Below are positions 2,355-35,598 of a DNA stretch of 36,624 nucleotides, one piece after another. Each line of letters begins with the position of its first letter. Positions within the stretch are counted from its first letter, which is position 1. The notes under the pieces are model-generated. The model searched no databases and had not been told where the DNA came from. It worked only from the letters and a program-made list of their open reading frames with translations. This stretch comes from Anaeroplasmataceae bacterium (GTDB taxonomy: Bacteria; Bacillota_I; Bacilli_A; Acholeplasmatales; Anaeroplasmataceae), in assembly GCA_029057785.1 (NCBI GenBank), contig JAIDZC010000041.1:1-36624 (forward strand), written 5' to 3'. The position numbers were made by a program, and so were the translations under genes.

Positions 2355-3167
2355 ATGCTGAAACTAAAAATTGTTAATGGACAAAACAACGAATTGTTTA
2401 TAAGTCCTACGCAAGAAAGTATTTGTAGTATATATAATTTCGAATATCAAGATGGGGATTGGCTTATTGTCGATTGTGATAAAAAAGGCGGTTTTTATAA
2501 AATCCGTTTAGAAGACACAATGCTAGAATCTATAGTCTATGTTCCAGGCAATTGTCTCATCTATCATATCCCTGTTAAAAGTCAGAGAAGTAATTATTCT
2601 CCAAAATCTTTTTATGGAGATTGTCATATTATTACCGTTTCAGAGGCAACAGAAGAAGAAATTTACCAAAGAAGAAATCTCGCGTTTAATCCATATGATC
2701 AGCACGAGAACGACAGCTTCTTTCCACACTCCTCTGCAAATGTGGAAACTAGAAATGAATGTGTGTTTGCAAGTAGAAATGCAATAGATGGGTATTTCTT
2801 TAATGAATCTCACGGGAGCTTCCCTTATCAAAGCTGGGGCATAAATAAAAACCCTAATGCTGAATTTAAAATAGATTTTGGTAGAGATGTTCTTATAGAT
2901 GAGATTGTTTTAACCCTTAGAGCTGATTTCCCTCATGATAACTTTTGGAAATCTGCAACACTAAGCTTTTCTGATGGTAGTGAGCTTGTAATGCAGTTAA
3001 ATAAAACTGCAGAAAGGCAATCTATATGTTTTGAAGCCAAAAAAGTTAGAACGATTGTTTTAAAGAATTTAATCAAGGGAGAAGAGTTATCTGATTTCCC
3101 AGCTCTCACACAATTTGAGGCGTGGGGCTATGAAATAAAAAATAATAAAGAAAGGAGAGAAAAATGA
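2355..3167 (+). CDS. Cytosolic discoidin (F5/8 type C)-like carbohydrate-binding protein
   Basis: About 270 aa, with no signal peptide or membrane segment. The C-terminal half (about residues 125-260) resembles a galactose-binding/F5-8 type C beta-sandwich: an ASRNAIDGYF block, a W-G-I-N segment, FKIDFGRDVLIDEIVLTLR and a terminal FEAWGYE strand. The N-terminal half is beta-rich and unrecognised. It is first in the locus and overlaps the GH88 hydrolase gene by 4 bp (ATGA), so it probably works with that enzyme on imported uronic-acid oligosaccharides. ATG 2346 sits directly against the GGGG ribosome site, so I chose ATG 2355, with proper spacing. The function is inferred from context only. 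Confidence 0.6.
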   Translation: MLKLKIVNGQNNELFISPTQESICSIYNFEYQDGDWLIVDCDKKGGFYKIRLEDTMLESIVYVPGNCLIYHIPVKSQRSNYSPKSFYGDCHIITVSEATEEEIYQRRNLAFNPYDQHENDSFFPHSSANVETRNECVFASRNAIDGYFFNESHGSFPYQSWGINKNPNAEFKIDFGRDVLIDEIVLTLRADFPHDNFWKSATLSFSDGSELVMQLNKTAERQSICFEAKKVRTIVLKNLIKGEELSDFPALTQFEAWGYEIKNNKERREK

Positions 3168-4390
3168 AAAAGGTTAATTTAGAAAAAATTCAAAAGGAAG
3201 AGTATAAGATTTGTCCTAAATTTTCTAAAGAAGATATTAAAGCCGTTTTAGACAAGGTTGTTAAAATTGTGGATCATATGTTACTGAAATTCCATGACGA
3301 TTCCTTTCCTAGAGCTTGTAGTAAGGGATATGTATATGACTCAGTTGGAAATTTAAAATGGGATAGCAGCAATAATGAAAGTATATGGACCACATCCTTT
3401 TGGACCGGTATTCTGTGGTTGGTTTATGAGTATACAAATGATGAGAAATACAAGATAGAAGCACAAAAGCATTCAGAATCTTTCCGTCAAAGAATAGACA
3501 ATTACTATAACAAAAACGAAGAAGAGGCCGGTTTAAATCATCACGATCTAGGATTTCTCTACAGTATCTCCACTGTTGCAGATTATAAACTGACTGGATC
3601 TAAGCGTGCTTTAGAAACATCTCTTATGGCTGCGGAACTCTTATCTAAGCGTTACATTGATAAAGCTAAGATTTTACAAGCCTGGGGAGATATGAATGAT
3701 GAAAATCAAAGAGGCCGAATGATTATTGATTGTAATTTAAATATTCCACTTCTTTATTTCGCAAACGAGTATAAAGAAGATAATGAGTTTTACTGGATGG
3801 CTTACAATCATGCTAAAACAGCAAGTCAATATATTATCCGTGAGGATGCCTCAACGTTCCATACCTTCCATATGGATACGGAAACAGGAGAGCCTAGATT
3901 TGGATCTACGCATCAAGGCTATAGTGATGATTCTTGTTGGGCTAGAGGACAGGCTTGGGGAATTATGGGCTTCCCAATTTCCTATCGTTACACCAAGGAT
4001 TTAGAATTTGTTGATAAGGCGAAATGCTTAGCAAATTATTTCCTAAATCGATTACCTAAAGATTATGTATGTAATTGGGATTTGATCTTTTTAGGAGAAC
4101 ATGACCAAAGAGATACAAGTGCAGCAGCAATTGCAGCAATAGGACTCTTAGAGCTTTCAGATATTCTTCCAGAAACAGATAAGACTAAAGAAATATATAA
4201 GAATGCAAGTTTGTATATAGCAAAGTCATTATCAGAAAATTACTTGGGTGATAATTTAGAAGGCATTTTAAAAAGTGGTGTATATTTTTATCACGGTGGT
4301 CTGGGTATTGACGAATATGTAATATTTGGGGATTACTTCTTCGTTGAACTATTATTAAGATTATATAAGAAATGGAATTCATATTGGTAG
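3164..4390 (+). CDS. Unsaturated glucuronyl hydrolase, glycoside hydrolase family 88
   Basis: A 408-aa cytosolic enzyme of the (alpha/alpha)6-barrel family. GH88 hydrates the 4,5-double bond of the unsaturated uronic acid left by polysaccharide lyases, which releases the uronate and the neighbouring amino sugar. The two essential Asp residues known from Bacillus UGL align with Asp128 in NHHDLGF and Asp189 in MIIDCNLNIPLL. The block HQGYSDDSCWARGQAWG (250-266) is typical of the family. The length is normal. It overlaps the upstream gene by ATGA and has a good AAGGAGAG site. With the PL8 lyase and NagA/NagB downstream, its likely substrates are unsaturated hyaluronan- or chondroitin-type disaccharides. 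Confidence 0.93.
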   Translation: MKKVNLEKIQKEEYKICPKFSKEDIKAVLDKVVKIVDHMLLKFHDDSFPRACSKGYVYDSVGNLKWDSSNNESIWTTSFWTGILWLVYEYTNDEKYKIEAQKHSESFRQRIDNYYNKNEEEAGLNHHDLGFLYSISTVADYKLTGSKRALETSLMAAELLSKRYIDKAKILQAWGDMNDENQRGRMIIDCNLNIPLLYFANEYKEDNEFYWMAYNHAKTASQYIIREDASTFHTFHMDTETGEPRFGSTHQGYSDDSCWARGQAWGIMGFPISYRYTKDLEFVDKAKCLANYFLNRLPKDYVCNWDLIFLGEHDQRDTSAAAIAAIGLLELSDILPETDKTKEIYKNASLYIAKSLSENYLGDNLEGILKSGVYFYHGGLGIDEYVIFGDYFFVELLLRLYKKWNSYW

Positions 4391-4400: not shown

Positions 4401-5456
4401 ATGGAAGTAGAAATCTTAGAAAACACTGAAGTTGTACAGACTGATGAAGTTAAGGAATCTTCAGAACAAAATTTAACGACAAACACTTTCAAGGATAAAA
4501 TGAAAAATTATACTAAGACTTTCAAAGATAATATGAAAAAGTATATCAAGTATAACTGGCAAATCTATTTATTATTTTTACCAGCGTTTATTTGGATGAT
4601 CATGTTTGTGTTTGTTCCGTTTATTTCCAATGTCTATATGTCTTTTATGGATTATAGTACAGAAAAAGGACTAATTGGTAGTCCTTTTGTGGGAGTAAAA
4701 AACTATGCAGAATTCTTCACAATGGATGGATTCTGGGGTCTGTTGGGAAATACGTTGCTATTAAATGTGTTGGTTTTAGTTATCGGATTCCCTGCAGCAA
4801 TTTTACTAGCAATTATGATTTATGAATCTAAGAGTAAAGTGGTAAAGGGTATTGCCCAAACAACAACCTTCTTGCCTTTCTTTATTTCAGCAGTTGTCGT
4901 TTGTAATTTAGTGATTGAGTTTTTAAAGTCTGACACGGGTATGATTGTTAACATTCTTGCAGCTTTGCATATTGTTGATCCAGAGAACAAGCCAGAGTTA
5001 TTAGAAAATCCGGCAGCCTTTAGATGGATATATGCACTTATGGAGCTATGGCAAACGATAGGATACAATTCCTTAATTTATCTTGCAGCATTATCTGCGA
5101 TAGATACATCTCTATACGAAGCTGCATCAATGGATGGTGCTGGAAAGTTTAGACAAATTTTCCATGTAACATTACCAGGAATTGCACCAACAATTATTAT
5201 CACATTGATATTGAAAATCGGAAAATTATTATCAATGGGATATGAAAAGGTCTTGTTATTACAAAATGTTTATAATAAGCCGACATCTGAAATTATAAGT
5301 ACGTATGTATACACTGTTACCCTAGGACAAGAATTGGGTATACCAAATTATGGTCTAGCAGCAACGATTGGTTTATTTGATGCAGTAGTTGCAATTGTGT
5401 TGGTTACTATTGTAAACAAGGTTGCTAAGAAAGTATCAGATACTCAGTTATGGTAA
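4401..5456 (+). CDS. Carbohydrate ABC transporter permease, LplB/MalF type
   Basis: A 351-aa inner-membrane permease. A lysine-rich, partly repeated cytosolic N-terminus of about 55 residues (FKDKMKNYTKTF, then FKDNMKKYIKY) precedes six predicted membrane helices, beginning at about YLLFLPAFIWMIMFVFV. The EAA loop that contacts the ATPase is present as EAASMDGAGKFRQI near residue 240. It pairs with the permease at 5471 and the lipoprotein at 14507, and all belong to the LplABC-type oligosaccharide importers. No ATPase gene sits beside it. The MsmK-like ATPase at 25966 is the obvious candidate. AGGAGGGG lies just before the ATG. Confidence 0.9.
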   Translation: MEVEILENTEVVQTDEVKESSEQNLTTNTFKDKMKNYTKTFKDNMKKYIKYNWQIYLLFLPAFIWMIMFVFVPFISNVYMSFMDYSTEKGLIGSPFVGVKNYAEFFTMDGFWGLLGNTLLLNVLVLVIGFPAAILLAIMIYESKSKVVKGIAQTTTFLPFFISAVVVCNLVIEFLKSDTGMIVNILAALHIVDPENKPELLENPAAFRWIYALMELWQTIGYNSLIYLAALSAIDTSLYEAASMDGAGKFRQIFHVTLPGIAPTIIITLILKIGKLLSMGYEKVLLLQNVYNKPTSEIISTYVYTVTLGQELGIPNYGLAATIGLFDAVVAIVLVTIVNKVAKKVSDTQLW

Positions 5457-5470
5457 GGCGGGTGATTAAA

Positions 5471-6358
5471 GTGAAAATGAGTTTAAATTTACAAGATTTT
5501 AAAAAGAAATTAACTGTGGATAATATCTTAGGTATTGTTAATAATGTGTTATTAATTGTTTTATCCATAATAATGCTTTATCCAATACTTTATATCTTTA
5601 TCACTGCTGTAAGTGATCCACAATCATTCACAAACGCAGTGAATCACAATAAGTTCTTACTATTTCCTCAAGGATTTACGGCAGAATTTTTAGTAGAACA
5701 TTTAAAGTCTATTGAAATTTGGCGGGCTTATGGTAATACAGTTCTCTATACTCTTTTAGGTACTGCTATCAGCTTATTCTTGAGTATCACTTGTGCTTAT
5801 GTTTTATCCAGAAAAGGATTAAAGGCAATAAAGGTGATGAGTATTATTGTTGTTTTAACTATGTGGCTAAAGCCAGGTATGATAGCAACTTATACAAACA
5901 TTTTAAATTTAGGACTAATGGGAAGTATCTTTGGTATTTTATTACCATTTGCTTTCTCAGCCTATAATGTTATTTTATTAAGAACCTATTTTGCAGCAAT
6001 TCCTCAAGATATTGATGAATCTGCACAAATAGATGGAGCATCTCACTTTAGAATGCTGACAAGCATTTATATTCCAGCGAGTGGACCTGCAATAACTACT
6101 GTTGGATTATTCTATGCTATTGAGCGTTGGAATGGATATTTCTGGGCAGAGCTTGTCTTAACAGATCCAAACAAACAACCTTTACAAGTAGTAGTTAAGA
6201 AGATGCTTGAAAATCAAGGAGATGCTGTCGGTCTATTCAATAATGGAACTGTATCAGCATTCGCATTAATTATAATCGCTATTGTTCCAATCATGTTAAT
6301 ATTCCCATTCATCCAGAAGTATTTCAAAAAGGGTGTCATGGTTGGTTCAGTTAAATAA
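5471..6358 (+). CDS. Carbohydrate ABC transporter permease, YtcP/MalG type
   Basis: About 295 aa with six membrane helices. The EAA loop is ESAQIDGASHFRML and the C-terminus GVMVGSVK is typical of this subfamily. It forms the second half of the permease dimer with the upstream gene. An ATG at 5450 overlaps the preceding stop codon, but the Shine-Dalgarno-like AAGGCGGGTGA at 5455-5465 lies after it. I therefore take GTG 5471 as the start, with ATG 5477 as the alternative. The function is import of oligosaccharides released by the surface lyase. Confidence 0.88.
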   Translation: MKMSLNLQDFKKKLTVDNILGIVNNVLLIVLSIIMLYPILYIFITAVSDPQSFTNAVNHNKFLLFPQGFTAEFLVEHLKSIEIWRAYGNTVLYTLLGTAISLFLSITCAYVLSRKGLKAIKVMSIIVVLTMWLKPGMIATYTNILNLGLMGSIFGILLPFAFSAYNVILLRTYFAAIPQDIDESAQIDGASHFRMLTSIYIPASGPAITTVGLFYAIERWNGYFWAELVLTDPNKQPLQVVVKKMLENQGDAVGLFNNGTVSAFALIIIAIVPIMLIFPFIQKYFKKGVMVGSVK

Positions 6359-6381
6359 TAAAAAAGAAAGGAATGAAAAAA

Positions 6382-9300
6382 ATGGCGAAATTCAAAAAAA
6401 TATTTTTAAGTGCAGCAATGCTATTTGGCATTTGCGCTATAGGGGGGGGTCTTACATCTCATGCAGAAGATGGTGACCAAACACCTGTAGAATTAACAGA
6501 ACACTTTAGTTTTACAGAAGAATTTGATTATGGAGATGGCACTATTGATGCTTATGGTGGAGCAAACAACCATAACATTTTTGCTATCGGCAATAACGCG
6601 GCAAATCTTGTGTCCACTTCACTAGAAAATATGGATGGATTAGAGGTTTTAAAGATAACAGGTTTATCAGACGGCGCTCTACAAGGACAGGTACAATTTA
6701 GAGATAATGGTAGTGCTTCAAGCTTATATAATCAACCTGGAACTTCTATGGTTCTTAAATTTAAATTTTACATTGATCACGCAAGAGAACAACAATTTAC
6801 AATATGGTTTGGTTCAGATGATATTGGTGCCAGCAGAACGTATACATTGTTAAGAATGCGTGATGATGCAACTACTTATCAAGTTGCGGGCGGTTCTTGG
6901 CAAACAATTGATGTTCTAACCGAAAGAGTTTCTACCGATACATGGCATGAAGCGACTTTCATTTTTGAAAACAATGGAGGCTTAACTAGTGATAATAAGT
7001 CACAAGATAAAATCATTGGTTTTTTAGATGGACAACGCATTTATGAAACAAATTTTGCCAATGGGGATGATTTTGATGGCAAATTAACACAATTTGCTTA
7101 CAATCTACCAAATGGTAACACTGGTCGAGATCTGCATACTTATATTGATTATATTAGAATTGGTGAATATAATGCACCAGTTGTGAATAATCCAGAAAAT
7201 ATGGAAGCATTCACAAACATTCCATTCTCAATTGGATCTTTGGTGATTGGAACAAATGCTGCATATTTGCCTTCTATTGTACCTTCTTATGATGTAGAAT
7301 TTACACTTAAAGATTCTGGAGATTCATTAGAAAAAACTACATCTGGAAATGTTACCACATATTCATTAGATGGTACAGACTATTTAGAATATTCAAGTTT
7401 AACAAATAAGTATACTGCATTAACAGAAACTGTGTTAACTGCAACAGCAACTTTCTCTGACACATTTGATCCAATCACTTTTGATGTTTCTGTTAGTGAA
7501 TACACACAGCCAATTCCAGTAGAAAGAATTATTATTTCACAACCAGATATTGTAAAAAATGATTCAATTACTTTAGGTGTTGGAGAAACATATGATTTAA
7601 CTCAATTATTTAGCGCTGATCCAATTACTGCTACTGACTTAAACGTTACTTATACAGTAGAAGACGAAGGAATTGCATATGTTACAGATTCTACTTTAGA
7701 AGCTTTAGCAAGTGGTTCTACAAAGTTAACTATTACTGCAACTGGTGGAGGTGCAGAAGTTTCAAAAGAAATTACTCTTAATGTAACAAAAGGACATTAT
7801 TCAATATTAAATGGCTATACAACAGAAGACACATCTACAGAAGGTAATCAAGAATTTGCTGGATATGTGAGTTCAAAAGCTAATAATAAAGAGTATGCCC
7901 CAGTTACTGTTATTACAGATCCTCTATTTGGTAATGTGATAAAGTTTACAGGTGTAGGTGAAACTACGAATGGTTCAGCAGCACATTTAAATCTACATAT
8001 TCCTCTAGAAAATCTTGTAGCAAATAAGGATTACAAGCTTACTGGTTGGGTAAAGATGGAAAATAATGGAGCTACAAACAAAGATGCAAGATTAGATGTT
8101 AAAATTATTATGTACTATGTTGAAGGTGACAATTATGGATATCCAGATCAAGGTGTACTTCCTTACCGTGTTGAATATGCTACAATAAAAATTAGTCAAG
8201 CAGGCCAGGGATGGAGACAATTTGAAATGGATGTTCCTGCAAACTTAGATATGAATGCAAATGGATTTGATTTTGCAGGATTAAAAGTGGAAATTGCCGC
8301 TTGGAACGTACAAGAAAATATAGATAGTTATATTACTCATTTAAATTTAGTAGAACAAGATAGCGTATACCTTTCTAGCTGGGGATTAGCTGATGAAGAG
8401 GGCGCTGCTAAAGAAGAATATACTTTAAATACTGGAAGCACATTACAGTTAAATGCTGTACCAGTTCCATCAGCTGCAACTGTTGAGGCAACTTATGAAT
8501 CAGCAGATAATACAATCGCAACAGTAGATGAAAATGGATTAGTAACTGTTTTAAATGTAGCAGGTGAAACAACAATAACTGTTACTGTAGGAACTGTAAC
8601 AAAAACTGTAAAAATTACAGTAACTAAGGGCGCAACAGCTATTACTAGTGATAAGAATAGTATCGAAATGACTATTGATGAATTTGAAGAAGAGGGACAA
8701 TTTGACCCTGTTTGTACAATCACAGTAACACCAGCTGATTCAACTAGTAAGCTTGATGTTAAAGTAGCTGATGAAACGGTTTGTAAAGCAGAATTAATTG
8801 GTAATGAATTATGGTTAAGTGATGCTAAAGTTGGAACTACTATAGTTACAATATTCTCTAAGGATGATCCTACTGTTAAGTTTGAAATTACAGTTACCTT
8901 TACAGAAGAAGGAAGCGAGACTCCAGAACCAGATACTTATACAATTACTTATAATGTACAAGGCCATGGAGAAGCACCGGCAAGTGTATCTAATGCAACA
9001 GCATTACCAACAAATCTTCCTCAAATTACAGCAGAAGGTTATGTATTTGGCGGTTGGTATTTAAATGCAGATTGTACTGAAGCAGCACAAGCAGGCGCAG
9101 CAATCACAAAAAATACAACACTATATGCAAAGTGGACACCAGAAGGTGAAGAACCAGCAACAACTTATACAATTACATATGATATACAAGGTCATGGAGA
9201 AGCACCAGCAAGTGTATCTAATGCAACAGCATTACCAACAAATCTTCCTCAAATTACAGCAGAAGGTTATGTATTTGGCGGTTGGTATTTAAATGCAGAT

Positions 9301-9804
9301 TGTACTGAAGCAGCACAAGCAGGCGCAGCAATCACAAAAAATACAACACTATATGCAAAGTGGACAGCAGAAGGTGAAGAACCAACAACAACTTATACAA
9401 TCACATATAATGTACAAGGTCATGGAACAGCACCAGCAAGTGCTACAGGAACAAAGCTTCCTGATGAATTACCTGTATTATCTGAAACAGGATATACATT
9501 CGGTGGTTGGTATTTAGATGCAGATTGTACTGAAGCAGCACAAGCAGGCGCAGCAATCACTGAAGATACAACATTATATGCACAATGGACTGAAAAACCA
9601 GTAGTTAATCCAACTCCTGAAAATCCAAAGAAAAATGGTCTTTCTGGAGGCGCTATTGCTGGAATCGTTATCGGTGTTCTTGCAGCTTTAGGATTAGCTG
9701 GAGGTTTAGCATTCTACTTTATTAAAAAGAATCAAGCTCCAAAAGCAGCTGAAGAAAATAAAGAAGAACCAGAAAACACAGAAAATACAGAAGATAAGGA
9801 ATAA
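6382..9804 (+). CDS. Large surface protein with LamG-like, Big_2, CBM-like and three InlB (Flg_new) repeats
   Basis: 1140 aa. A signal peptide ends at about SHA-ED (residue 28). A LamG/concanavalin-like sandwich follows (about 35-260), then bacterial Ig-like Big_2 regions (about 380-470, 660-750 and 750-840), a CBM/galactose-binding-like module (about 475-655), three InlB/Listeria-Bacteroides repeats ending in LYAKWT or LYAQWT (about 850-1070), a membrane helix (about 1090-1110) and a charged cytosolic tail. There is no LPXTG, so it is held by the helix. The likely role is binding of host polysaccharide or extracellular matrix next to the lyase encoded downstream. No catalytic motif was recognised. 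ATG 6373 abuts the ribosome site, so ATG 6382 is chosen. A G8 run lies in the signal-peptide codons. Confidence 0.82.
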   Translation: MAKFKKIFLSAAMLFGICAIGGGLTSHAEDGDQTPVELTEHFSFTEEFDYGDGTIDAYGGANNHNIFAIGNNAANLVSTSLENMDGLEVLKITGLSDGALQGQVQFRDNGSASSLYNQPGTSMVLKFKFYIDHAREQQFTIWFGSDDIGASRTYTLLRMRDDATTYQVAGGSWQTIDVLTERVSTDTWHEATFIFENNGGLTSDNKSQDKIIGFLDGQRIYETNFANGDDFDGKLTQFAYNLPNGNTGRDLHTYIDYIRIGEYNAPVVNNPENMEAFTNIPFSIGSLVIGTNAAYLPSIVPSYDVEFTLKDSGDSLEKTTSGNVTTYSLDGTDYLEYSSLTNKYTALTETVLTATATFSDTFDPITFDVSVSEYTQPIPVERIIISQPDIVKNDSITLGVGETYDLTQLFSADPITATDLNVTYTVEDEGIAYVTDSTLEALASGSTKLTITATGGGAEVSKEITLNVTKGHYSILNGYTTEDTSTEGNQEFAGYVSSKANNKEYAPVTVITDPLFGNVIKFTGVGETTNGSAAHLNLHIPLENLVANKDYKLTGWVKMENNGATNKDARLDVKIIMYYVEGDNYGYPDQGVLPYRVEYATIKISQAGQGWRQFEMDVPANLDMNANGFDFAGLKVEIAAWNVQENIDSYITHLNLVEQDSVYLSSWGLADEEGAAKEEYTLNTGSTLQLNAVPVPSAATVEATYESADNTIATVDENGLVTVLNVAGETTITVTVGTVTKTVKITVTKGATAITSDKNSIEMTIDEFEEEGQFDPVCTITVTPADSTSKLDVKVADETVCKAELIGNELWLSDAKVGTTIVTIFSKDDPTVKFEITVTFTEEGSETPEPDTYTITYNVQGHGEAPASVSNATALPTNLPQITAEGYVFGGWYLNADCTEAAQAGAAITKNTTLYAKWTPEGEEPATTYTITYDIQGHGEAPASVSNATALPTNLPQITAEGYVFGGWYLNADCTEAAQAGAAITKNTTLYAKWTAEGEEPTTTYTITYNVQGHGTAPASATGTKLPDELPVLSETGYTFGGWYLDADCTEAAQAGAAITEDTTLYAQWTEKPVVNPTPENPKKNGLSGGAIAGIVIGVLAALGLAGGLAFYFIKKNQAPKAAEENKEEPENTENTEDKE
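6442..6449 (+). repeat. Poly-G(8) tract inside signal-peptide codons (possible phase-variation tract)
   Basis: Eight consecutive G residues (ATA GGG GGG GGT) encode Gly-Gly-Gly in the hydrophobic core of the signal peptide. In this AT-rich window I see no other G run this long; the next longest I noticed is six, near 32596. A gain or loss of one base would frameshift the gene after about 22 codons. Confidence 0.75.
8935..9593 (+). repeat. Tandem 228-bp DNA repeats encoding InlB domains
   Basis: Three in-frame units start at 8935, 9163 and 9391. The first two are nearly identical at base level. The third is more diverged in its middle and slightly shorter. They encode the Flg_new repeats of the surface protein and are good substrates for slippage or recombination that changes repeat number. 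Confidence 0.9.
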
Positions 9805-9812: not shown

Positions 9813-12800
9813 ATGAAGAAAAAAGTTATATTATTTAGTGCTTTATTTCTTCTGATTCTAACATGTTTTATTGGAACTGCCATTTCTTTGGACCTAAGGG
9901 TACAAAAAGATGGCAGTACTTCTCCTTCCTTTGTAGCTACAAGTAGCGAAAGGAGAAATCCTTTAAAGAATAAAGAAAATCAAGTAATTGATGTTGGCGA
10001 AGAGTATGAATTCACTTTTATGCCATATGTCAAAGAGGAACAAAAGCAAAGTCTTCAAATTGAAATAGAAGATGAAGAAGTATTATATTTAACAAAATCT
10101 AAATATAAAGTAATCGGTTTAAAGGCAGGCACCTCAAAGGTTACAATTTCTTCAGCTGATTACTATGCAGAAGTTGAAATTGAAGTTCGATTAAAAAATC
10201 TTTCAGAGGATGGTGATTTTTCATCATTTGCATCAGATGCAGAATGGCTTACAGGAAATCAAACCGTTAATGGATGGAGACTTTATACAGGTTCAGGCAG
10301 CAACGATCTAGATAGCAAGCAGGTTGTTAAAATCGTTGAAATCGATGAAACAAATGAAGCTAACGAAACTGTCCAAAACAAGGTTGTTTATTATAATCAC
10401 CAAAAAGAAGCACAATCTGTTTTATATAGAACCTACGATGTAGGTGCAGGACAATATTATGTTACTGCTAGAATGAAAACTGAAAATGTTTCTAAAACAA
10501 CCTATTTACGTGTAAATCAAGATAATAAAAATACTGTAGTATCAGACAGTTTAACTGGAAGTACAGATTGGATGCAAGTTTCCACTCCAATTTTTAGAAT
10601 TGAAGAAGGAGAACCGAATCCTTTAAAGATTGAGCTTTATATCGCAAATAGTACAGGTGAAATTTGGTTTGATGATATTCAAATTTATCGTATTATTCAA
10701 CATGATTATTTGTCTATTTCTTCAGAAAGTATGACAGAAGATTTAGAGGTTGGAGAACAAAGACAGATTAACTGTTTTACAAATCCTGCTTCAAAGGTAG
10801 ATTACCAGTTTGAATATGAAGTAAAAGATGAGAATATTGTTGAAGTTTCTCCAACAGGTGTAATGACTGCTAAAGCAGCAGGTATTACAACAATCACTAT
10901 TAAGGATGAAATATTTGGTTATACAACAAAGTTTGATGTTATCGTTGGTGCAAAGGACAAAATCTCAGCAAAGGTAAATGATAACAACAATTTAGTTTAT
11001 ACTAAGGAAGATACAACTTTAGAAATTTCACTACAGGTTACAAATAGTACATCTTATCAAATTGTAAAGTATAGTTCTGCAGCCTATGGTGATTACTATA
11101 TTAAAAACAACAAGATTTACTATACACCAAAATATAATGTCTTTACTACAAATGAAAGAGATTCATTTGAGGTGGTTGTTCTTGATGAAAAAGCAGGAGC
11201 ATTCTGTATTGTAAAGATAACTGTTGATGTTTCTGCAGAAAGCGATCCTTGTATTGCAACAGATTTTTGGTTGACTACACCAAAGAATACAGCTTTAGAG
11301 TGGACAACAAGCAAAAATAAATATAATTACTCTGCAGGTGGAAAGTATAATGGAACATCTACAGATATGATCTATAACGGAGCATATTTACAAATCACAT
11401 GTGATGATGTTGAGGTTATCTATCCTTATACTACAAGAAATCAATTTAGAGAGGCAGGAACAGAAGCCACTTTAAGAAAAGCCAAAGTTGATCTTTACCA
11501 AGCTATTTATGCAACTGCAGCAGATGGAAGCTTTAAATTCACGACTTCAAACGGAGGAACAGTAGAAATTCTTCGAGGCGGAAAAATTGATGAAATCCAG
11601 GATAGATATTATTCTCAAACAGGAAAGATTATTCATGGTTTATTATATAACTATACTCCTAAAGAGGGATTCTATGGATATGATACATTCAACTTTACAC
11701 TTCATAACGGAGAAAGAGAAGATGTTGTTTCAGCAACAATTTATGTTCTTCCTGGTGATGAAGAATTCAAATTTAAAAATTTAGATTTGGATGGCATTTA
11801 TTTATTAACAAATAATGCATGGTTAGAAGAAGTAAGAGCAGGATTTGAAAATGGTGATCCTTATATCTGCCGCTGGGTAGATTTTTATGAAAATCAATTA
11901 AGAGGACATAACTTAACAGGTATTCCAGCTAATGCACGTTCTGCCATTGAACAATTTGCAATTCTTTATCAGGTGACTGGTGAGGAGGAATATGCAGAAC
12001 GTTGTTGGGAACAGTTATCCGTAATTGTTGGTAAGGATAGAGGATTAGACTGGGGAGGATCTTCTAATGGATTCTTGGATGCAGCAATGGTTACATATAG
12101 TGTTGCTTTTGCCTATAATTTTATTAGAGATACTTTAACAGAAGAACAAAAAGCTCAAACAATACGAGCTCTTTATGAAGAGGGATTCTATTTCTTTGAG
12201 ACCCTTACAAATGTAAATGTATTATTACATGGTAACAACCACTGTTTGTTAATTTGTGGAAATTTAGCTCTTGCAGCTTTATCTACATTAAGTTATGAAG
12301 GAAAATTAGACGTAACCACAAATGGAAAAACATCTACAATAGATGTTCAAGAAATGTCAGTTCAAGTTATTATTACAGCACTTAAATTCTTACAAACAGG
12401 ATTAGTTCATTATTCTGAATCAGGTGGATTCCCTGAAGGTCCAGCATATTCCATTTATGCACATAGAAATATGGTGCATTTGCTTGCTACCTTAAGAAAT
12501 CTATATGGTGAAGAAGATGGGAAAATTTATTCCTTTGGATTAAGTGATATTAAAGGTATTATGGATTATACAAATTATCCACTATATACCTCTACTCCAA
12601 ATTATGAATCTTTCTATTATGCAGAAAGTGAATATTCAAATAACCAACCAGCACTTATGTGGTATACAAGAATAGATGAATCTAATATAAATGCTGCGGT
12701 TTTAAGTAAATTAGCTGATGAAAACGAACAATATAATATTCTAAATTTATTGTGGTATACACCAGGATTATTTGATAAGGTGAATCTACACGAAATGGAT

Positions 12801-14510
12801 ACGCTAGACTATTTACTAGAAGATCATGAGCTTGCAACCTTCCGTTCAGCCTTTGGTGATGAGATGGCTATCTTTACTGGTTTAAAAGGCTTTGATACGG
12901 ATAGTGGAGCATATACTCATAGAAATCTAGATAGCGGAACATTCGAGATATATGCATTTGGAGAAAGATTTATAGGAAACTTCTCAGATGAATTATATAG
13001 TGCTGATGTTGGTGTTCCAAATGGATTCTGGGACTATGACTATCAAAGATGGACATATTATAGAAAGAGTGCTCAAGGACAAAACACATTAGTGTTTAAT
13101 CCAGAGAAGAACCCTGTTCTACAACAATCCCCTTATGAATATGCACCGATTGTTGATTTCAATTCTAATAAGAATGGTGGATACGCAGTAATCAATTTAT
13201 CTGATGTATATAACACAGATGTTACATCTGCTTATCGTGGATTAAAATTCTTCGATAATCGTTCAAAGATTATGATTCAAGATGAATTTGAATTACGTGA
13301 CACATCCACAGTATATTGGAGTGCCCACACAGAGGCTAAAATTGAAATTATCAATGAAAAGCTTGCTAGATTGATATTGAATGGAAAGAGCTTATACGCT
13401 TATATTAATAGCGAAATCGGAACATTCTCTGTTATGCCAGCAACTGCTCTTCCTGGAACAATTGGAGAATTCTGTCATCTAGATAATACAGATATTAACA
13501 AGCTTATTATTAAATTAGAAAATGTTACATCTGGTGTCTTAAATGTAGTGTTTGTTCCAACATTAGAAGAGATTACAGAATTCGAAAAATATGAAATTGT
13601 TTCTCTTGCAGATTGGACATTAGAAGATTTACCTATCATCCCTGATATTTCAGTTGAGAATATTGAAGTCAATGCAGAATTAGGAAATCAGTTTAAATAT
13701 GTATTTAATCCTTATCAATATGATTATATTGTTAAATTAGATAATACAGTTAAAGAGGTACCTGATCTTACTGTAGATTATAATTCATCTAAATATGAAG
13801 TTACAATTGAAAAATCAAAGCTATTTAATCAAGCAACTAAGGTCATAGTTACAGATATTGAAACAAAGGAAACTCGAGAATATCGCTATCGATTCATTGT
13901 GGATACAATTATAGATGAATATGAATATGAAGATTACACGCAAATTACTGTTGCAGATGTAACAGGAAATGAAGGGGCTTCTAATTTAATTGATGGACGT
14001 AACTCTACAACCTTTACATCTGATGAACGCGAAATTGTAATATTTGAATTTGAGAAAGTCTCTAAATTGACTAATGTATTAATGCGTTTTTCAGGAGGTC
14101 TATTGAATACTTATTACTTTGATATTTACTATAGCTTAGATGGAGAAACTTGGACAACCTGTTATTTTGGCGGTCAAAGCACGAATAATATGGGAAATGA
14201 AGTTTATTCTCTTGGTGCAGTTGAAGCAAAATTTATTAAAATAGTATTTAATGGAAATAATCATAGTGAGAAAGTAACTATTTCAAGAGTTGAATTTTAT
14301 AATAACAATTATGATGAACAAGAAGAACCAGGAGAGGATCCAGGTTACAATCCAGGAGAAGATCCAGGATATGATCCGGGAGAAGATCCAATTGACGAAA
14401 AGGAGATTAACAATCTTCCAATCATTTTAGGATCTCTTTTCGGTGTAATAGGTTTAGCAGTTTTAGCTGCTGCCGTTGTAATCATTATTAAGAGGAGGTT
14501 AAAAAAATGA
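9813..14510 (+). CDS. Membrane-anchored heparinase II/III-family polysaccharide lyase, multidomain
   Basis: 1565 aa, and exported: hydrophobic residues 5-26. Two Big_2-like regions (about 50-125 and 300-380) flank a CBM4_9-like module (about 130-295), and further Ig-like sandwiches reach about 650. The catalytic part follows: an alpha-toroid (about 655-1000) with HGNNHCLLICGN (806-817) and GGFPEGPAYSIYAHR (871-885), then the heparinase II/III beta-sandwich (about 1010-1240) with YTHRNLDSGTFEIYAFGERF (1034-1053). By analogy with heparinase II, candidate catalytic residues are Asn809/His810, Tyr879 or Tyr882, and His1036. A discoidin domain (about 1375-1500), a Pro/Gly/Asp linker with a repeated GEDPGY motif, a membrane helix (1534-1559) and KRRLKK end the protein. 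The enzyme would cut uronic-acid polymer at the cell surface by beta-elimination. The exact PL family and substrate are unknown. Confidence 0.82.
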   Translation: MKKKVILFSALFLLILTCFIGTAISLDLRVQKDGSTSPSFVATSSERRNPLKNKENQVIDVGEEYEFTFMPYVKEEQKQSLQIEIEDEEVLYLTKSKYKVIGLKAGTSKVTISSADYYAEVEIEVRLKNLSEDGDFSSFASDAEWLTGNQTVNGWRLYTGSGSNDLDSKQVVKIVEIDETNEANETVQNKVVYYNHQKEAQSVLYRTYDVGAGQYYVTARMKTENVSKTTYLRVNQDNKNTVVSDSLTGSTDWMQVSTPIFRIEEGEPNPLKIELYIANSTGEIWFDDIQIYRIIQHDYLSISSESMTEDLEVGEQRQINCFTNPASKVDYQFEYEVKDENIVEVSPTGVMTAKAAGITTITIKDEIFGYTTKFDVIVGAKDKISAKVNDNNNLVYTKEDTTLEISLQVTNSTSYQIVKYSSAAYGDYYIKNNKIYYTPKYNVFTTNERDSFEVVVLDEKAGAFCIVKITVDVSAESDPCIATDFWLTTPKNTALEWTTSKNKYNYSAGGKYNGTSTDMIYNGAYLQITCDDVEVIYPYTTRNQFREAGTEATLRKAKVDLYQAIYATAADGSFKFTTSNGGTVEILRGGKIDEIQDRYYSQTGKIIHGLLYNYTPKEGFYGYDTFNFTLHNGEREDVVSATIYVLPGDEEFKFKNLDLDGIYLLTNNAWLEEVRAGFENGDPYICRWVDFYENQLRGHNLTGIPANARSAIEQFAILYQVTGEEEYAERCWEQLSVIVGKDRGLDWGGSSNGFLDAAMVTYSVAFAYNFIRDTLTEEQKAQTIRALYEEGFYFFETLTNVNVLLHGNNHCLLICGNLALAALSTLSYEGKLDVTTNGKTSTIDVQEMSVQVIITALKFLQTGLVHYSESGGFPEGPAYSIYAHRNMVHLLATLRNLYGEEDGKIYSFGLSDIKGIMDYTNYPLYTSTPNYESFYYAESEYSNNQPALMWYTRIDESNINAAVLSKLADENEQYNILNLLWYTPGLFDKVNLHEMDTLDYLLEDHELATFRSAFGDEMAIFTGLKGFDTDSGAYTHRNLDSGTFEIYAFGERFIGNFSDELYSADVGVPNGFWDYDYQRWTYYRKSAQGQNTLVFNPEKNPVLQQSPYEYAPIVDFNSNKNGGYAVINLSDVYNTDVTSAYRGLKFFDNRSKIMIQDEFELRDTSTVYWSAHTEAKIEIINEKLARLILNGKSLYAYINSEIGTFSVMPATALPGTIGEFCHLDNTDINKLIIKLENVTSGVLNVVFVPTLEEITEFEKYEIVSLADWTLEDLPIIPDISVENIEVNAELGNQFKYVFNPYQYDYIVKLDNTVKEVPDLTVDYNSSKYEVTIEKSKLFNQATKVIVTDIETKETREYRYRFIVDTIIDEYEYEDYTQITVADVTGNEGASNLIDGRNSTTFTSDEREIVIFEFEKVSKLTNVLMRFSGGLLNTYYFDIYYSLDGETWTTCYFGGQSTNNMGNEVYSLGAVEAKFIKIVFNGNNHSEKVTISRVEFYNNNYDEQEEPGEDPGYNPGEDPGYDPGEDPIDEKEINNLPIILGSLFGVIGLAVLAAAVVIIIKRRLKK

Positions 14511-16123
14511 AAAAATTTTTACTAATGATAGCACTAGCAATTTGTAGTATTTTTACTCTTGCATCTTGTGGTGGTAATACTGATAATCCAGGTGGCGGTA
14601 ATACCGATAATCCAGGTGGTGGTAATACTGATAACCCAGGCAATGTTAATAAAAAAGAGTTCACAATTTTCTTACAACAAGATGGCGTGATTTATCGTTC
14701 TGATATGCCTGTTTTCCAAAAGGCAAATGATTATGCCAATATTAAATTGACAGGTATTTTACAAAAATACGATACAAACTACGATACAATCTTTAATTTA
14801 AGAGGAAAAAATGCAAGCTTAGTAGTTAATGATCAAGATACAATTGAGGCTTATGCATTAAGAGATAAGCTTTATGTAGATTTAACATCTTTAATTGAAG
14901 AGCATGCTCCTAATTTAAAGAAATTCTTTGATGAGAATCCAAAACAGAAGGCTTGGGCAACTGCAAGTGATGGAAAAATTTATGGTATTCCATTCTATAC
15001 TGATGGAAAGACTGCAAAAGCTTTCTTTGTAAGACAAGACTGGGTTAACATTCTTGCAAACAAGAACGCATTACCAAAGGGCGTTACAAAAAATAATTTA
15101 AATAATATGACAGTTCAACAATTCCATGATTTGTTGATGGCATTTAAGGACAACAAGAAGGATTTAACTTCATACTCAAAGATTATTCCATACTTTGATA
15201 GAGATTCTGAATTTGCAATTTCTGAATTGGCTTCTTTATGGGGCGGAACAGCAGAGTATTATTTAGATAACAATAATAAAGTTCAATATGGTGCAATTAT
15301 GCCAGAATTTAGAACTGCTATAGATAATATTTCTGTGTGGTTTAAAGAAGGTTTAATTGATTCAACAATCTTAACTTCATCTTCAAAGGATAAGAGAGAA
15401 ACTTACTTTGCTCAAAATAGCGGTGGTGCTACACATGACTGGTTAGGTACTACTTATTCATTTAACGATGATGTTTATGCAGAAAACATGGTTGATGGAT
15501 TTGAATTAGTTTGTATTGCTCCACCTACAAGAAGTGATGGAACAAAGTATGAGCCTACTCTTCGTAAGCAAATCGGTACAGTAACTGCAATCAATGCAGC
15601 AACAAGTGTAGAAGATCAAATTCAATTAATTAAATGGATTGATTATTTCTTTACAGAGACAGGTCATGATCAATTGAATTTTGGTATTGAAGGAGAACAT
15701 TTCACAAAGAATGGTTCTACTTATGAGTATACAAATAAGATTATTAATGATAACGGAACAGCGTTAGCAAACCTTTATAATATTGGATCTCAGCTTCAAT
15801 CTCCAGGTGTTCAATCCTTTGCATATGAAAAGGCATGGTTATCTACTCCTGCAAGTGAAGCAATGGAGATGTATGAAAATAACAAATATTTGAACTTAAA
15901 GTACAATGATTTAATTTATCCTAATATTAAATTAAGCAATGCAGATTATCAAACAATCAATGCGGCAAGAACAGCTGTAAAGAAAGTTTATAATGATCAG
16001 GTTGCTAAATGGTTAAAGGCAGGAACAGCAGTTAGCGATAAAGATTGGAATGCATTTGTTGCAGCTATGGAAAAGGCAGGAACAAAGACCATCGTCGCTA
16101 CACTACAAAAATATGTAAAGTAA
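14507..16123 (+). CDS. Lipoprotein sugar-binding protein of the ABC importer, LplA type
   Basis: 538 aa. A signal peptide with lipobox LASC gives lipidated Cys21, followed by a flexible linker of three 24-bp DNA repeats (GGNTDNPG, about 14570-14638) and a large extracellular solute-binding domain (about residues 50-538). The size and the partnership with LplB/YtcP-type permeases fit the family that binds uronic-acid or complex oligosaccharides. Its start overlaps the lyase stop codon (ATGA), and its ribosome site AGAGGAGG lies in the codons for the lyase's basic tail. It would capture oligosaccharides made by the surface lyase and deliver them to the permeases encoded at 4401 and 5471. Confidence 0.9.
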   Translation: MKKFLLMIALAICSIFTLASCGGNTDNPGGGNTDNPGGGNTDNPGNVNKKEFTIFLQQDGVIYRSDMPVFQKANDYANIKLTGILQKYDTNYDTIFNLRGKNASLVVNDQDTIEAYALRDKLYVDLTSLIEEHAPNLKKFFDENPKQKAWATASDGKIYGIPFYTDGKTAKAFFVRQDWVNILANKNALPKGVTKNNLNNMTVQQFHDLLMAFKDNKKDLTSYSKIIPYFDRDSEFAISELASLWGGTAEYYLDNNNKVQYGAIMPEFRTAIDNISVWFKEGLIDSTILTSSSKDKRETYFAQNSGGATHDWLGTTYSFNDDVYAENMVDGFELVCIAPPTRSDGTKYEPTLRKQIGTVTAINAATSVEDQIQLIKWIDYFFTETGHDQLNFGIEGEHFTKNGSTYEYTNKIINDNGTALANLYNIGSQLQSPGVQSFAYEKAWLSTPASEAMEMYENNKYLNLKYNDLIYPNIKLSNADYQTINAARTAVKKVYNDQVAKWLKAGTAVSDKDWNAFVAAMEKAGTKTIVATLQKYVK

Positions 16124-16153: not shown

Positions 16154-18244
16154 GTGGATTTTCATAATGACAAGCCGGGAGATTTCTATTTGGAGATCAA
16201 AGTTTTAAAGGATCTTGATTGTACGGATATTAAATATCATGTTGATGGAAGAGAGGGTGTTCTTCCTATATCCAATCAAGGATATTATGCAATTTACTTA
16301 GGTCATTTCTCCTTTTGTATGATAGAAGAGCATAAGGATGCAGAGTTTGTTTTAAAGACTTGTGATTCGAAATTAGATAAAATCATTAGGACTTATAAGG
16401 ATTCTTTGTTAGAGACTGTTGAATTGAATGTTTTAGAAATTCAAAATTTATATGAGAATTTACCTAAAGAAAATACAGAAAGAATTTATCACATCTTTAA
16501 AAGGTTGTTGAGTCTTGTTAAGCAGGGCTTACTTTCGCAGAATGAGAATTTACTTAAAGAAGTTATAAAAGAATTACAAATCAATATTCAAAAGGAATAT
16601 AGCGGAAAGAAAAACTATATCGGAAATTGGTGGGTATTTGAAATTGGTGTTCCAAGATGTCTAAATGAAATGATGATATTGTTATATGATTATATTCCTA
16701 AAGAGGATTTATTCTCCTATATGGCAATAGAAAACTTTTACTTGCCAAATGCAGAATATGAGTACTATAGAAGAAACTATCCCATTGTAAGTCGCTTCAA
16801 AACAAACTATGCAAATTTGGCTGATAACATTTATATTTGCCTTTTAAGAAATGTTTTAATTCAAAACAAAGAAGAGATTATGTATTTACATTCTCTTTTA
16901 CCAACTCTGATACAAACAACAGAAGAAGGAAATGGTTTTTATGAGGATGGAGGATTTCTTTACCATACGAATATCCCTTACAATGCATCTTATGGTGAAG
17001 TTCTTCTACATTCTATTGCAAAAATTCTTGAGGTTTATGTTTTATTAGAAGTGGATTGTACAGAATATTTTGAAAAGCTATATTTGATTATTGAAAAGGG
17101 TTATATGCCGTTTTTGTATCGACAAAGAGCGTTGGATTGTGTTCGAGGAAGGGCTTCTAGCCGAACAAGAGGAGCACAGTATAGCTTTAATACAATTATT
17201 GCTTCCTTTCGTAAGCTTTCAAAATTATTTTGTAAGCAAGGGTTTATAGATTATATTTTTAATGAAGAGCAGTGCTATGATTACAAGGCAAAAGCTTATG
17301 TATATAATTCGATGAATCGATATATAAAAAGAAACCAAGAATATCTTATAGCTATATCGTCTTATTCAAATCGAGTTGCAAATTATGAGAGCATCAACAA
17401 TGAGAATCTAGTTGGGTTTTATCAATCCAATTTCACATTTGATGTATATTATAATGAACCCGTTGATCCGGATGCAATTTTAAAAATAAATCCATATTAT
17501 CGAAATGGCTCAACAAACGTATTGAAGCCAGAAGAAGCAAACGCACCAATGGAAAATATGATTTCAGCAGGTGTTGCTTTCAATACACTTTTAAATACTT
17601 GTTATCATCAAAACAATACTGTAAAAGGATACTTTTCTAAAATCGTATTAGAAAATTCTATTGTAGCTATAGGAACTCATATTTCTTCTGATCAAGAATA
17701 TGTTTCAACAATCTATAGCTTTGATGAACCATATTCTTTACATAAGGATGTGGTAGAAGCAAGCTTCAAGCTTATTTGTAAACAAAAACCGATATTTGAA
17801 AAATTTAAAGAAGAACGTTCTTATTATGATATGAATCTAAATGAAGAGGATAAACCTAAGTGTTTTTCAGGAACTCGTATTTATTATAAGAACCCTAAAG
17901 AATATGAATATCAATTCTATCCAAAAATGTATAGCATACAAGATGAGTATGAAGCAGTTACTCTTCCTGCTGCCCATATTGTAATGTATAAGAATTATAT
18001 TTTCATCAATAGCTTTGACGAGCTTTCTTGGAAGTATAAGAGCTTTAAAATTCAAGGACGTGCTTCTATGATTGTGCTTTTGAAAGATGAGCAAATAAAA
18101 ATTAAATTTGCTGGTGTTCCAAATCACAACCTATCCTTAAGCATTGATGGGTATGAGTGTGTTGATACAGATGTATTTAGAGAAAAGGATACGTTTGAAG
18201 TAAAGGATTATTTCGAACATACTATAGTGTATAGGAGAAAATAA
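16154..18244 (+). CDS. Polysaccharide lyase family 8 (hyaluronate/chondroitin lyase), apparently cytosolic
   Basis: 696 aa. Family PL8 is recognised from NWWVFEIGVPR (158-168), YANLADN with Asn221, EGNGFYEDGGFLYHTNIPY (258-276) with His271, Tyr280 in NASYGEV and RGRASSR (331-337). Asn221, His271 and Tyr280 match the Asn-His-Tyr triad of pneumococcal hyaluronate lyase, and the His-Tyr spacing of nine residues is kept. The C-terminal beta domains are present. Most PL8 enzymes are secreted, but this one begins with a polar beta-rich stretch and has no signal peptide. It probably degrades imported oligosaccharides to unsaturated disaccharides for the GH88. GTG 16154 follows AGGGGATGAT at good spacing, and no ATG fits better. 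Confidence 0.88.
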   Translation: MDFHNDKPGDFYLEIKVLKDLDCTDIKYHVDGREGVLPISNQGYYAIYLGHFSFCMIEEHKDAEFVLKTCDSKLDKIIRTYKDSLLETVELNVLEIQNLYENLPKENTERIYHIFKRLLSLVKQGLLSQNENLLKEVIKELQINIQKEYSGKKNYIGNWWVFEIGVPRCLNEMMILLYDYIPKEDLFSYMAIENFYLPNAEYEYYRRNYPIVSRFKTNYANLADNIYICLLRNVLIQNKEEIMYLHSLLPTLIQTTEEGNGFYEDGGFLYHTNIPYNASYGEVLLHSIAKILEVYVLLEVDCTEYFEKLYLIIEKGYMPFLYRQRALDCVRGRASSRTRGAQYSFNTIIASFRKLSKLFCKQGFIDYIFNEEQCYDYKAKAYVYNSMNRYIKRNQEYLIAISSYSNRVANYESINNENLVGFYQSNFTFDVYYNEPVDPDAILKINPYYRNGSTNVLKPEEANAPMENMISAGVAFNTLLNTCYHQNNTVKGYFSKIVLENSIVAIGTHISSDQEYVSTIYSFDEPYSLHKDVVEASFKLICKQKPIFEKFKEERSYYDMNLNEEDKPKCFSGTRIYYKNPKEYEYQFYPKMYSIQDEYEAVTLPAAHIVMYKNYIFINSFDELSWKYKSFKIQGRASMIVLLKDEQIKIKFAGVPNHNLSLSIDGYECVDTDVFREKDTFEVKDYFEHTIVYRRK

Positions 18245-27372: not shown

Positions 27373-27867
27373 ATGAAAAAGAAGTATTCCAGGTATGTAA
27401 ACTCAAAATCTAAGCGTCTTAATTCTATACCAGTAACAATAGGTTCTATTATTGTAGCTTATTTATCTGATTATGAAAGATTACCTAAATATGTAGAGGA
27501 TCATAAGAGAGAATCTGTAGTGGTACTTAAGGATATCAATAATGAATTAGGAGTAGTGTATATTCATGGATTAAAAAGCATTGATGGAAAATCCAGGCAC
27601 AAGAAGAAGGAGGCGGGTCTATGGGAAGAAATTGAAAAGAATGGACAAAAGGTATATGTGGACTTAGATATTAAGATTACAGACGCAGAAGGGAAATCAA
27701 TTAAACAAGGAGCTAAGTTTCAAAATACAGGAGTAATTTTGAGTTCTAAAGAGATGAAAAAAGTAAAAAATCACATATTTGGTGTCACTCCAAAACAAAG
27801 AGTAAACGGCGCCGATAGAATAATTAGAAAAAATAGAGCATTAAAAGAAAAAAGGAAAACCCAGTAA
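27373..27867 (+). CDS. Basic protein of unknown function, paralogue 1
   Basis: 164 aa, strongly basic, with no signal peptide or membrane helix. A conserved core (about residues 1-135) is shared with the next gene, and the last 30 residues diverge. Strands such as GSIIVAYLSDY and SVVVLKDINNELGVVYIHGL, followed by TGVILSSKEMKKVKNHIF near the end, are arranged somewhat like a MazF/PemK-type fold. No catalytic residues could be matched, so this is only a hint. It lies behind a strong promoter, a folded leader and a terminator. A convergent small-RNA gene overlaps its last codons. It could be a toxin, an RNA-binding protein or part of a mobile module. The family is not recognised. Confidence 0.75.
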   Translation: MKKKYSRYVNSKSKRLNSIPVTIGSIIVAYLSDYERLPKYVEDHKRESVVVLKDINNELGVVYIHGLKSIDGKSRHKKKEAGLWEEIEKNGQKVYVDLDIKITDAEGKSIKQGAKFQNTGVILSSKEMKKVKNHIFGVTPKQRVNGADRIIRKNRALKEKRKTQ

Positions 27868-27923
27868 TAAGGTTTTCCGAGAATTTTTTTGAACCGTATA
27901 TCGTCATCGACAAATTCTAACGT
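27848..27923 (-). ncRNA. Convergent small RNA of cassette 1
   Basis: The inferred minus-strand RNA is about 76 nt, starts near 27923 and ends in a T-run at 27848-27853. P1 pairs 27912-27918 with 27880-27886 (7 bp). P2 is the small hairpin 27900-27911, whose closing pair is G-U in this strand's RNA but would be A-C in the other strand. The terminator stem GGAAAACC/GGTTTTCC (27854-27861, 27871-27878) follows. The 3' part is antisense to the last codons of the protein gene. The second cassette has the same architecture. The RNA is predicted, not known. Confidence 0.7.
27854..27890. terminator. Bidirectional terminator between protein gene 1 and its small RNA
   Basis: A perfect 8-bp stem, GGAAAACC/GGTTTTCC, has a T7 tract on the plus side (27884-27890) and a T6 tract on the minus side (27848-27853). 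It can end both convergent transcripts. Confidence 0.85.
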
Positions 27924-27929
27924 ACTTAA

Positions 27930-27958
27930 ATTCTAGCATAGCGAATTTTTATTGTCAA
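27930..27958 (-). promoter_or_regulatory. Promoter of small RNA 1 (minus strand)
   Basis: On the minus strand, TTGACA (27958-27953), a 17-bp spacer ending in TGC and TAGAAT (27935-27930) make a near-perfect extended -10 promoter. An overlapping weaker plus-strand candidate, TTGTCA-N17-TATTTA (27952-27980), could serve the next gene. Confidence 0.85.
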
Positions 27959-27996
27959 TTCTAATTTTTATGAATATTTATTATGAGGGAGATAAA

Positions 27997-28485
27997 ATGA
28001 AAAAGAAGTATTTTAAGTATATAAATCCAAAATCTAAACGTCTTAATACTATACCCGTAACAATAGGTTCTATTATAGTAGCTTATTTATCTGATTATGA
28101 AAGATTACCTAAATATGTAGAGGATCATAAAAGAGAATCTGTAGTGGTACTTAAGGATATCGACGATGAACTAGGAGTGGTGTATATTCATGGATTAAAA
28201 AGCATTGATGGTAAACCAAGAGTAAAAAAGAAAGAAGCAGGACTATGGGAAGAGATTGAAAAGAATGGACAAAAGGTATATGTGGACTTAAATATCAGGA
28301 TTACAGATGCAGAAGGGAAACCAATTAAACAGAGGAGCAAGTTTAAGAACACAGGAGTAATTTTAAGTTCCAAAGAGATAAAGAAAGTACAAAATCATTT
28401 ATTTGAGCCTGGGAAAAGGAGTCATTCGGCAAGAAATATTGTAAGAGATAACAAAAAAATCCGAGAAAAAAAGGCTAATAAATAG
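27997..28485 (+). CDS. Basic protein of unknown function, paralogue 2
   Basis: 162 aa, about 85-90% identical by eye to the preceding paralogue through residue 130, then diverging into a different lysine/arginine-rich tail. The same possible MazF/PemK-like strand pattern is present, again without an identifiable active site. ATG 27997 follows GAGGGAG. An in-frame start further up (27952) lacks a ribosome site and is not conserved in paralogue 1. It is followed by its own convergent small-RNA gene. The tail divergence against a conserved core suggests an RNA- or partner-specific C-terminus, but that is inference. Confidence 0.75.
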   Translation: MKKKYFKYINPKSKRLNTIPVTIGSIIVAYLSDYERLPKYVEDHKRESVVVLKDIDDELGVVYIHGLKSIDGKPRVKKKEAGLWEEIEKNGQKVYVDLNIRITDAEGKPIKQRSKFKNTGVILSSKEIKKVQNHLFEPGKRSHSARNIVRDNKKIREKKANK

Positions 28486-34712: not shown

Positions 34713-35594
34713 TTAACTAATGTTTTTAATTAGAACTTTTGTGTTTATAAAATCTATTTTGGTTAAAACAAATCTCTTTTTGCCAACATCCTTAATAGAA
34801 GCCCCACATAGATAGATTGTATCATCTATAATGATAAATCTATCGTGTATTTGATTTGTTTTAATGACAGTAAGATTGTGATTGATATTAAACTTATCTA
34901 TATCTTGATTTGTAAGTGTAGAGGATGGATAAGTATAGATAGTTATAGGTAGAGATATGCCTATTAGCATATCTAATACAGATAAATCTACATAACCATC
35001 AATAAGAGTAATAGAAGAATTAGCAGATAGAAAGAGTTGTTTCACATAAGAATAAGCATCAAATATATCTCCTTCATAGAATAGTTTATCTGATAATAGA
35101 GAAGTAGGATTAGAAAGACTTTGTATATCTTTAGAATGCTGAATATCATGCTCTAGTAAAGTATTCACTTTATTGTTTAAACTGACAAGATTTTCTTGGC
35201 ATTCCAAACAACGTTTTTCATTAATTGAATATCCATTCAACATATATTGTTTTAAGATAGAGGTAGCCCATTTACGGAAGAGGATACCTCTTTTTGAATT
35301 TACACGATAACCAACTGCTAGAATCATATCTAAATTGTAATATTTGATTTTTCTTCTAATCAGTCTATTCCCTTCCATTTGAACTTGTTCCAAAATGGAA
35401 CAGGTTGAAGTATCTAACTCTTTGTTTGAAAGAATATTTGAAATATGCTTTAATATGGCAGGTCTTTGTACATTAAAAAGCATAGCCATTTGATTAGCAG
35501 TCAACCACACAGTATCTTCATTAGGACTCACATTGACATCTAAAGAGAACTCACCATCTTCAAATTTGATTAAATCATAGTTGTTATTTTGCAT
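34713..35594 (-). CDS. RhuM-family protein with C-terminal PLD-like domain, copy 1
   Basis: 293 aa. The N-terminal part (about 15-130) matches the RhuM virulence-protein family: VWLTANQMAMLFNV looks like a DNA-binding helix-turn-helix, and YNLDMILAVGYRVNSKRG (86-103) is the family signature. A variable linker (130-165) joins a C-terminal PLD-like domain (168-290) whose motif HDRFIIIDD (250-258) is HxRx4D in place of the HKD of true phospholipase D, followed by LCGASIKDVG. With one such motif per chain, activity would need a dimer, or the domain may only bind. The role is unknown; such fusions occur in defence and mobile regions. GGGAGG precedes the ATG. Confidence 0.8.
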   Translation of the reverse strand: MQNNNYDLIKFEDGEFSLDVNVSPNEDTVWLTANQMAMLFNVQRPAILKHISNILSNKELDTSTCSILEQVQMEGNRLIRRKIKYYNLDMILAVGYRVNSKRGILFRKWATSILKQYMLNGYSINEKRCLECQENLVSLNNKVNTLLEHDIQHSKDIQSLSNPTSLLSDKLFYEGDIFDAYSYVKQLFLSANSSITLIDGYVDLSVLDMLIGISLPITIYTYPSSTLTNQDIDKFNINHNLTVIKTNQIHDRFIIIDDTIYLCGASIKDVGKKRFVLTKIDFINTKVLIKNIS

Positions 35595-35598
35595 AGTA

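Follow-up and report, generated by a model that had tools for sequence, protein, structure and literature searches.

Does a run of eight G residues inside the signal peptide of a surface protein work as a phase-variation switch in a bacterium of the Anaeroplasmataceae? The original prediction, made on the stretch of DNA analysed here (36,624 nucleotides in all, the window), said that it probably does. Our answer is that the run, with a probability of roughly two in three, is a contingency switch of the slipped-strand type within a 5' coding region and belongs to a larger group of poly-G sites. The run lies at 6442-6449 on the forward strand, in the context ATA GGG GGG GGT CTT, and forms the glycine codons 21 to 23 (GGG GGG GGT) of a predicted signal peptide (6382-6465, +). 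A slippage-prone homopolymer is therefore present within the first 25 codons, as had been claimed; in Campylobacter, the usual lower limit for such tracts is 7 G (PMC8224891). The gene (6382-9804, +; open reading frame list and Pfam) encodes an exported surface protein of 1,140 aa with G8, which has three Flg_new repeats and a Big_2 domain according to Pfam and, judging by its sequence, a C-terminal membrane anchor. The signal peptide with its predicted cleavage reads MAKFKKIFLSAAMLFGICAIGGGLTSHA|ED, the cleavage after SHA being placed by eye. The open reading frame is listed from ATG 6373. The start is more likely to be ATG 6382, because the ribosome-binding site AAAGGA (6367-6372, +) lies 9 nt upstream of it, while ATG 6373 directly abuts this motif.

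We computed the reading frames of the window gene for other lengths of the run. With G7 the product is a peptide of 35 aa and with G9 a peptide of 31 aa, which bears out the expectation that slippage truncates the protein; the frame stays open with G5, G8 or G11. This means that one G more or less abolishes the full-length product, as is the case for a contingency locus. Under the mechanism that we propose, slippage to G7 or G9 would lose the frame and end translation after 31-35 codons (OFF), while G8 or G11 would be the ON state. We infer that such slippage occurs, at a rate of its own and reversibly, that it changes expression and that it brings a benefit, which might be surface diversity against phage, immunity or a changing substrate. 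A promoter across the run was considered and ruled out: the best -10 hexamer, found from the near-identical G003 and G008 copies, is TCTTAC (3/6), and the run does not lie between -35 and -10 hexamers as the porA repeat does. It could also be imagined that the run makes the RNA polymerase or the ribosome slip in a programmed way, so that a constant fraction of the product is frameshifted and nothing switches heritably, since transcriptional slippage is possible at homopolymers of eight or more. However, each of the shifted frames runs into a stop within 31-37 codons and yields no useful product, and relatives lose the run without any other change, so that we consider this explanation extremely improbable.

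The presence of a single G8 is only mildly unusual taken alone; its position and its evolutionary behaviour carry the weight. The G+C content of the window is 32.6%, and a G8 is present in 4 of 100 dinucleotide shuffles of it. By pattern searches in the whole genome (an assembly of 1.76 Mb in 44 contigs), we found 8 runs of at least 8 G or C, against about 5.3 expected from the dinucleotide frequencies of the window; a weaker second estimate, extrapolated from the counts of G6 and G7, puts P for at least 8 runs at 0.085. For runs of at least 10, we found 4 (lengths 10-13) against 0.22 expected from the same frequencies. The codon GGG accounts for 7.1% of the glycine codons in the window and for 3 of the 98 in the gene itself. 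Loss of mismatch repair as the source of the long poly-G runs was ruled out: MutS_I and MutL_C are both present in this genome, and among 60 relatives they are found in 58 and 59 respectively. The runs therefore do not stem from such a loss.

Orthologues of the window gene were taken by their position behind the same permease end. Among the congeners, the G8 is kept in frame in G003 (69% identity), in G008 (72%, the 5' end of the gene lying on a separate contig) and in G005 (52%). In G007 (47%) the run is G10 and out of frame: an open stretch of 36 codons around it ends in a stop, and the following 1,007 codons are open in another frame. No intact run is left in G001 (GGA ACA GGA), G006 (GGA GGA GGC) or G002 (GGG GGA GGT). 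The length alleles, which are between species only, are thus G8 in four genomes and G10 (OFF) in G007; that G8 makes up 4 of the 5 intact alleles is a point against a switch. Strict conservation of G8, which the original prediction had named as an outcome speaking against it, was not seen. Replacement by other glycine codons, the second such outcome, did occur in some species; it is no refutation, since the G10 allele exists elsewhere. Viral contigs and 160 genomes of the order (one genome per species) were searched for a second allele of the window run; none was found, the sole match being G003 with its G8.

These alleles bear on the simplest alternative, according to which the signal peptide simply has three glycines in a row, written with GGG codons by chance and passed on to relatives without any selection for switching. 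About five G8 runs per genome are expected in any case, most orthologues keep the glycine-rich motif at the protein level with other codons (as in G006 and G002), and coding poly-G is also seen at conserved glycine pairs of unrelated genes (a resolvase and an MnmA-like gene). Yet GGG GGG GGT is kept at 52% protein identity: the window gene and its G005 orthologue have 49 glycine positions in common, the codon is identical in just 17 of them, and GGG is present in both genes only at two positions of the run (hypergeometric P 0.0075). Nor does an ordinary glycine stretch account for an out-of-frame G10 allele whose remainder is intact, for the poly-G in the promoter of one orthologue, or for the genome-wide link of poly-G with exported genes. 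We therefore hold this alternative to be unlikely.

The orthologue with the promoter run is G019, from a sister genus (g4): it is without the coding run and has a G9 directly 5' of TATAAT, the -35 hexamer of this promoter being ATGTCA, which agrees by eye at just 4/6 positions. Within the same sister genus, G013 has an interrupted form of the run, and no such run was present in G032 or G034. Besides, a homologue in G004 (contig C2, L270:2498-2506) has a G9 near codon 730, beyond which 292 codons are open in another frame. This may be a second OFF allele, removing the C-terminal part of the protein, in which case a switch between a full-length and a truncated form is possible.

Of the eight runs of the genome, five lie between TTGAC[A/T] and a -10-like hexamer; the other three are an RNA-like one on contig C6 and two within coding sequence, namely the window run and a run in a gene for a TetR-type regulator. 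The long poly-G runs of this genome are thus mostly in promoters, at the position of the porA repeat. The spacers are 18 (C8), 17 (C44), 19 (C13) and 19 (C10) long; the fifth promoter run (C11) is a G13 with a weaker -10, 37 bp from a contig end. Across eleven genomes of the genus we counted 33 such promoters; their runs are G8-G13 and their spacers 17-21, with a single exception. Slippage in these sibling runs would change the spacer length and so retune the promoter. The genes downstream are mostly for lipoproteins or other exported proteins, which the siblings would then serve: 20 of 27 are signal-like, against 28 of 213 control neighbours (OR 19, p 8e-11), as called by a simple hydrophobicity rule and not by a trained predictor. 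The promoter pattern is found in 13 of the 160 genomes of the order besides the one studied here, all of them Anaeroplasmataceae (14/55), and is absent from all 105 genomes of the order outside this family. Among the sampled genomes of the phylum, 13 of 392 have it; the reversed pattern, used as a control, gave 0 throughout in both scans. Poly-C in the same place was found in 0 of 60 relatives, and the promoter spacers of the order have a strict strand bias, poly-G and never poly-C. Slippage alone does not explain this bias; an extended -10 with its G at -14 might. The lack of poly-C suggests a further role for the G run, in promoter recognition.

Taken together, a translational switch is well supported at the window gene, because the run is kept in several species and is out of frame in a congener, because other species have lost it by other codons, because the sister-genus orthologue has poly-G in its promoter, and because the other long poly-G runs of the genome precede exported proteins. 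The phase switch of the original prediction is thus favoured by the comparative alleles and by the genome-wide placement; the tract taken alone is not rare enough to argue for it (about 5 expected, 8 found).

In these genomes, poly-G runs are often at contig ends: 12 out of 72 are found no farther than 160 bp from an end, against 1.2 expected, this limit having been chosen after the data were seen. In G007, the breaks of contigs C25 and C53 fall within apparently the same promoter run. This clustering fits mixed run lengths in the sampled populations; read errors at poly-G could also cause it. One may then ask whether the OFF allele and the clustering together are nothing but errors of sequencing or assembly. 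Clear poly-G artefacts do occur in these assemblies, the probable cases at contig ends being L249, L253 and L266 (A-runs followed by G12 or G29) as well as L240 and L244, a class which includes interrupted G runs, and read errors also break contigs at poly-G. But the window run is internal to its contig and identical in three other species, and the promoter runs, unlike the artefacts, sit precisely between hexamers and are never poly-C. Moreover, the apparent contig-end artefacts were excluded before the statistics were made. An explanation by errors is hence very improbable, although the artefacts call for caution in poly-G surveys of metagenome assemblies.

The RNA-like run belongs to an element on contig C6 (L009:4120-4310, genome G000), which reads ATTATACT-G10-TATATT before a gene for a HAD-type phosphatase. 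It is exactly G10 in six species (L009, L258, L248, L234, L267, L263), and the G10 can pair with the conserved upstream sequence CCUCUCUC (RNAalifold consensus: 12 pairs, -14.07 kcal/mol). No Rfam match was found in the two loci scanned. From this folding model, the element looks like a fixed RNA structure, possibly an undescribed structured leader RNA. Its constant G10 shows that a long G run by itself is no proof of a switch.

Judging by its domains, the window holds a real host-glycan (glycosaminoglycan-use) locus, because it has a polysaccharide lyase of family 8 (PL8; 16154-18244, +; Pfam), an unsaturated uronyl hydrolase of the GH88 family (3164-4390, +; Pfam) and a heparinase II/III C-terminal match. 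The last, at 23.5 bits slightly below the Pfam cut-off of 24, belongs to a heparinase II/III-like protein with Big_2 and F5/8 type C domains (9813-14510, +; open reading frame list and Pfam). A putative promoter of the locus (2257-2285, +) consists of TTGATA, a 17-nt spacer without poly-G and TATAAT, and is followed by a candidate palindromic cre/LacI-type operator-like site, AGAAAGCGCTTTCA (2320-2333, +). By sequence, two ABC permease genes (4401-5456 and 5450-6358, +) come between the GH88 gene and the switch, and a lipoprotein without Pfam match (14507-16123, +; also in the open reading frame list), probably a solute-binding protein, lies between the heparinase-like gene and the PL8 gene; 3' of the latter are NagB-, NagA- and ROK-type genes, then an ABC ATPase. 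The suggestion that the switch would reduce, by polarity, the expression of the lyase and transporter genes is doubtful, because the permeases are upstream of the run and because Bacillota couple transcription to translation less tightly than enterics do. Since the heparinase-like frame starts 9 nt past the stop of the switched gene, an effect by translational coupling is nevertheless conceivable. At the same glycosaminoglycan locus in G007 (contig C98, L237, near 26,880), a G10 stands directly 5' of the start of the first gene; the window has AAAGGGGATGACAGGTATG at this place. The window also contains two tandem pairs of paralogues, one at 27373-28485 (+) with proteins of 164 and 177 aa, the other at 34713-36483 (-) with proteins of 293 and 294 aa whose C-terminal halves are near-identical.

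The mechanism itself has precedents in Neisseria porA, Campylobacter and mycoplasmas. Simple-repeat phase variation has been studied mainly in proteobacterial pathogens and mycoplasmas, and in gut commensals phase variation is known chiefly from DNA inversions. Like the window run, the poly-G/C tracts of Campylobacter and Helicobacter are in the 5' part of genes with surface functions, at about G8-14, and set ON or OFF by the frame (PMC2823697, PMC8224891). That evidence, in a different phylum, comes from reads or rates, length variation having been shown at read level in H. canadensis and rates measured in C. jejuni (PMC2823697, PMC8224891), whereas the window run is known from a comparison across species. 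A G8 of C. jejuni gains a G at 4e-4 and loses one at 4e-5 per division (PMC8224891). G8 is a short tract, which speaks against a switch, and since MutS and MutL are present here, slippage may be slower than in Campylobacter; Helicobacter, by contrast, is without parts of mismatch repair (PMC3234257). The poly-G of Neisseria meningitidis porA lies between -10 and -35 (PMC3899988), in the same place as the sibling runs; the window run differs in being coding, and in the Anaeroplasmataceae the porA design recurs in front of numerous unrelated genes for exported proteins. Among wall-less relatives, surface lipoproteins are switched by promoter repeats of poly-A (vlp of Mycoplasma hyorhinis) or of a dinucleotide (vmm of M. 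mycoides), while here the repeats are poly-G, before unrelated exported genes, and coding runs are present as well (PMC10502178). We found no description, in the open-access literature, of phase variation in Anaeroplasma or Acholeplasmatales, nor of an exchange of switch types between orthologues. The claim that none is known in glycosaminoglycan-use loci also held in this literature, in the parts available; the available part of a PL8-related paper on H. bizzozeronii describes no phase-variable lyase.

The locus and its sibling runs point to poly-G switching as a common way of controlling surface proteins among uncultured relatives of Anaeroplasma; if this is true, host-glycan use would be tied to surface switching. 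The same promoter form occurs in many other gut lineages. Among the matches listed from named genomes (L076-L194), TTGACA-N-poly-G-TATAAT is present in many gut Clostridia (Borkfalkia, Pumilibacter) and Bacilli, and also in Saccharibacteria, Ancillula and Streptobacillus. Again among the matches listed, the downstream protein is signal-like in 67 of 126; part of these promoter matches will be due to chance. A broader proposal, whose chances we see as evenly balanced, is that Anaeroplasmataceae and probably many gut Bacillota carry undescribed promoter switches made of sense-strand poly-G in front of genes for exported proteins, that between species a gene can trade such a switch for one in the signal peptide and stay phase-variable, and that the G run aids promoter recognition and so works as a graded rheostat besides turning the gene on or off. 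Such an exchange between promoter and coding switches on orthologues would be unusual evidence for selection of switching itself. The reverse of the case of G019 concerns the lipoprotein encoded downstream of the C8 promoter run (L010, G000), which has a homologue in G001 (L246, contig C82; 40% identity over 449 aa): there the promoter is without a run, and a coding G8 stands right after the lipobox.
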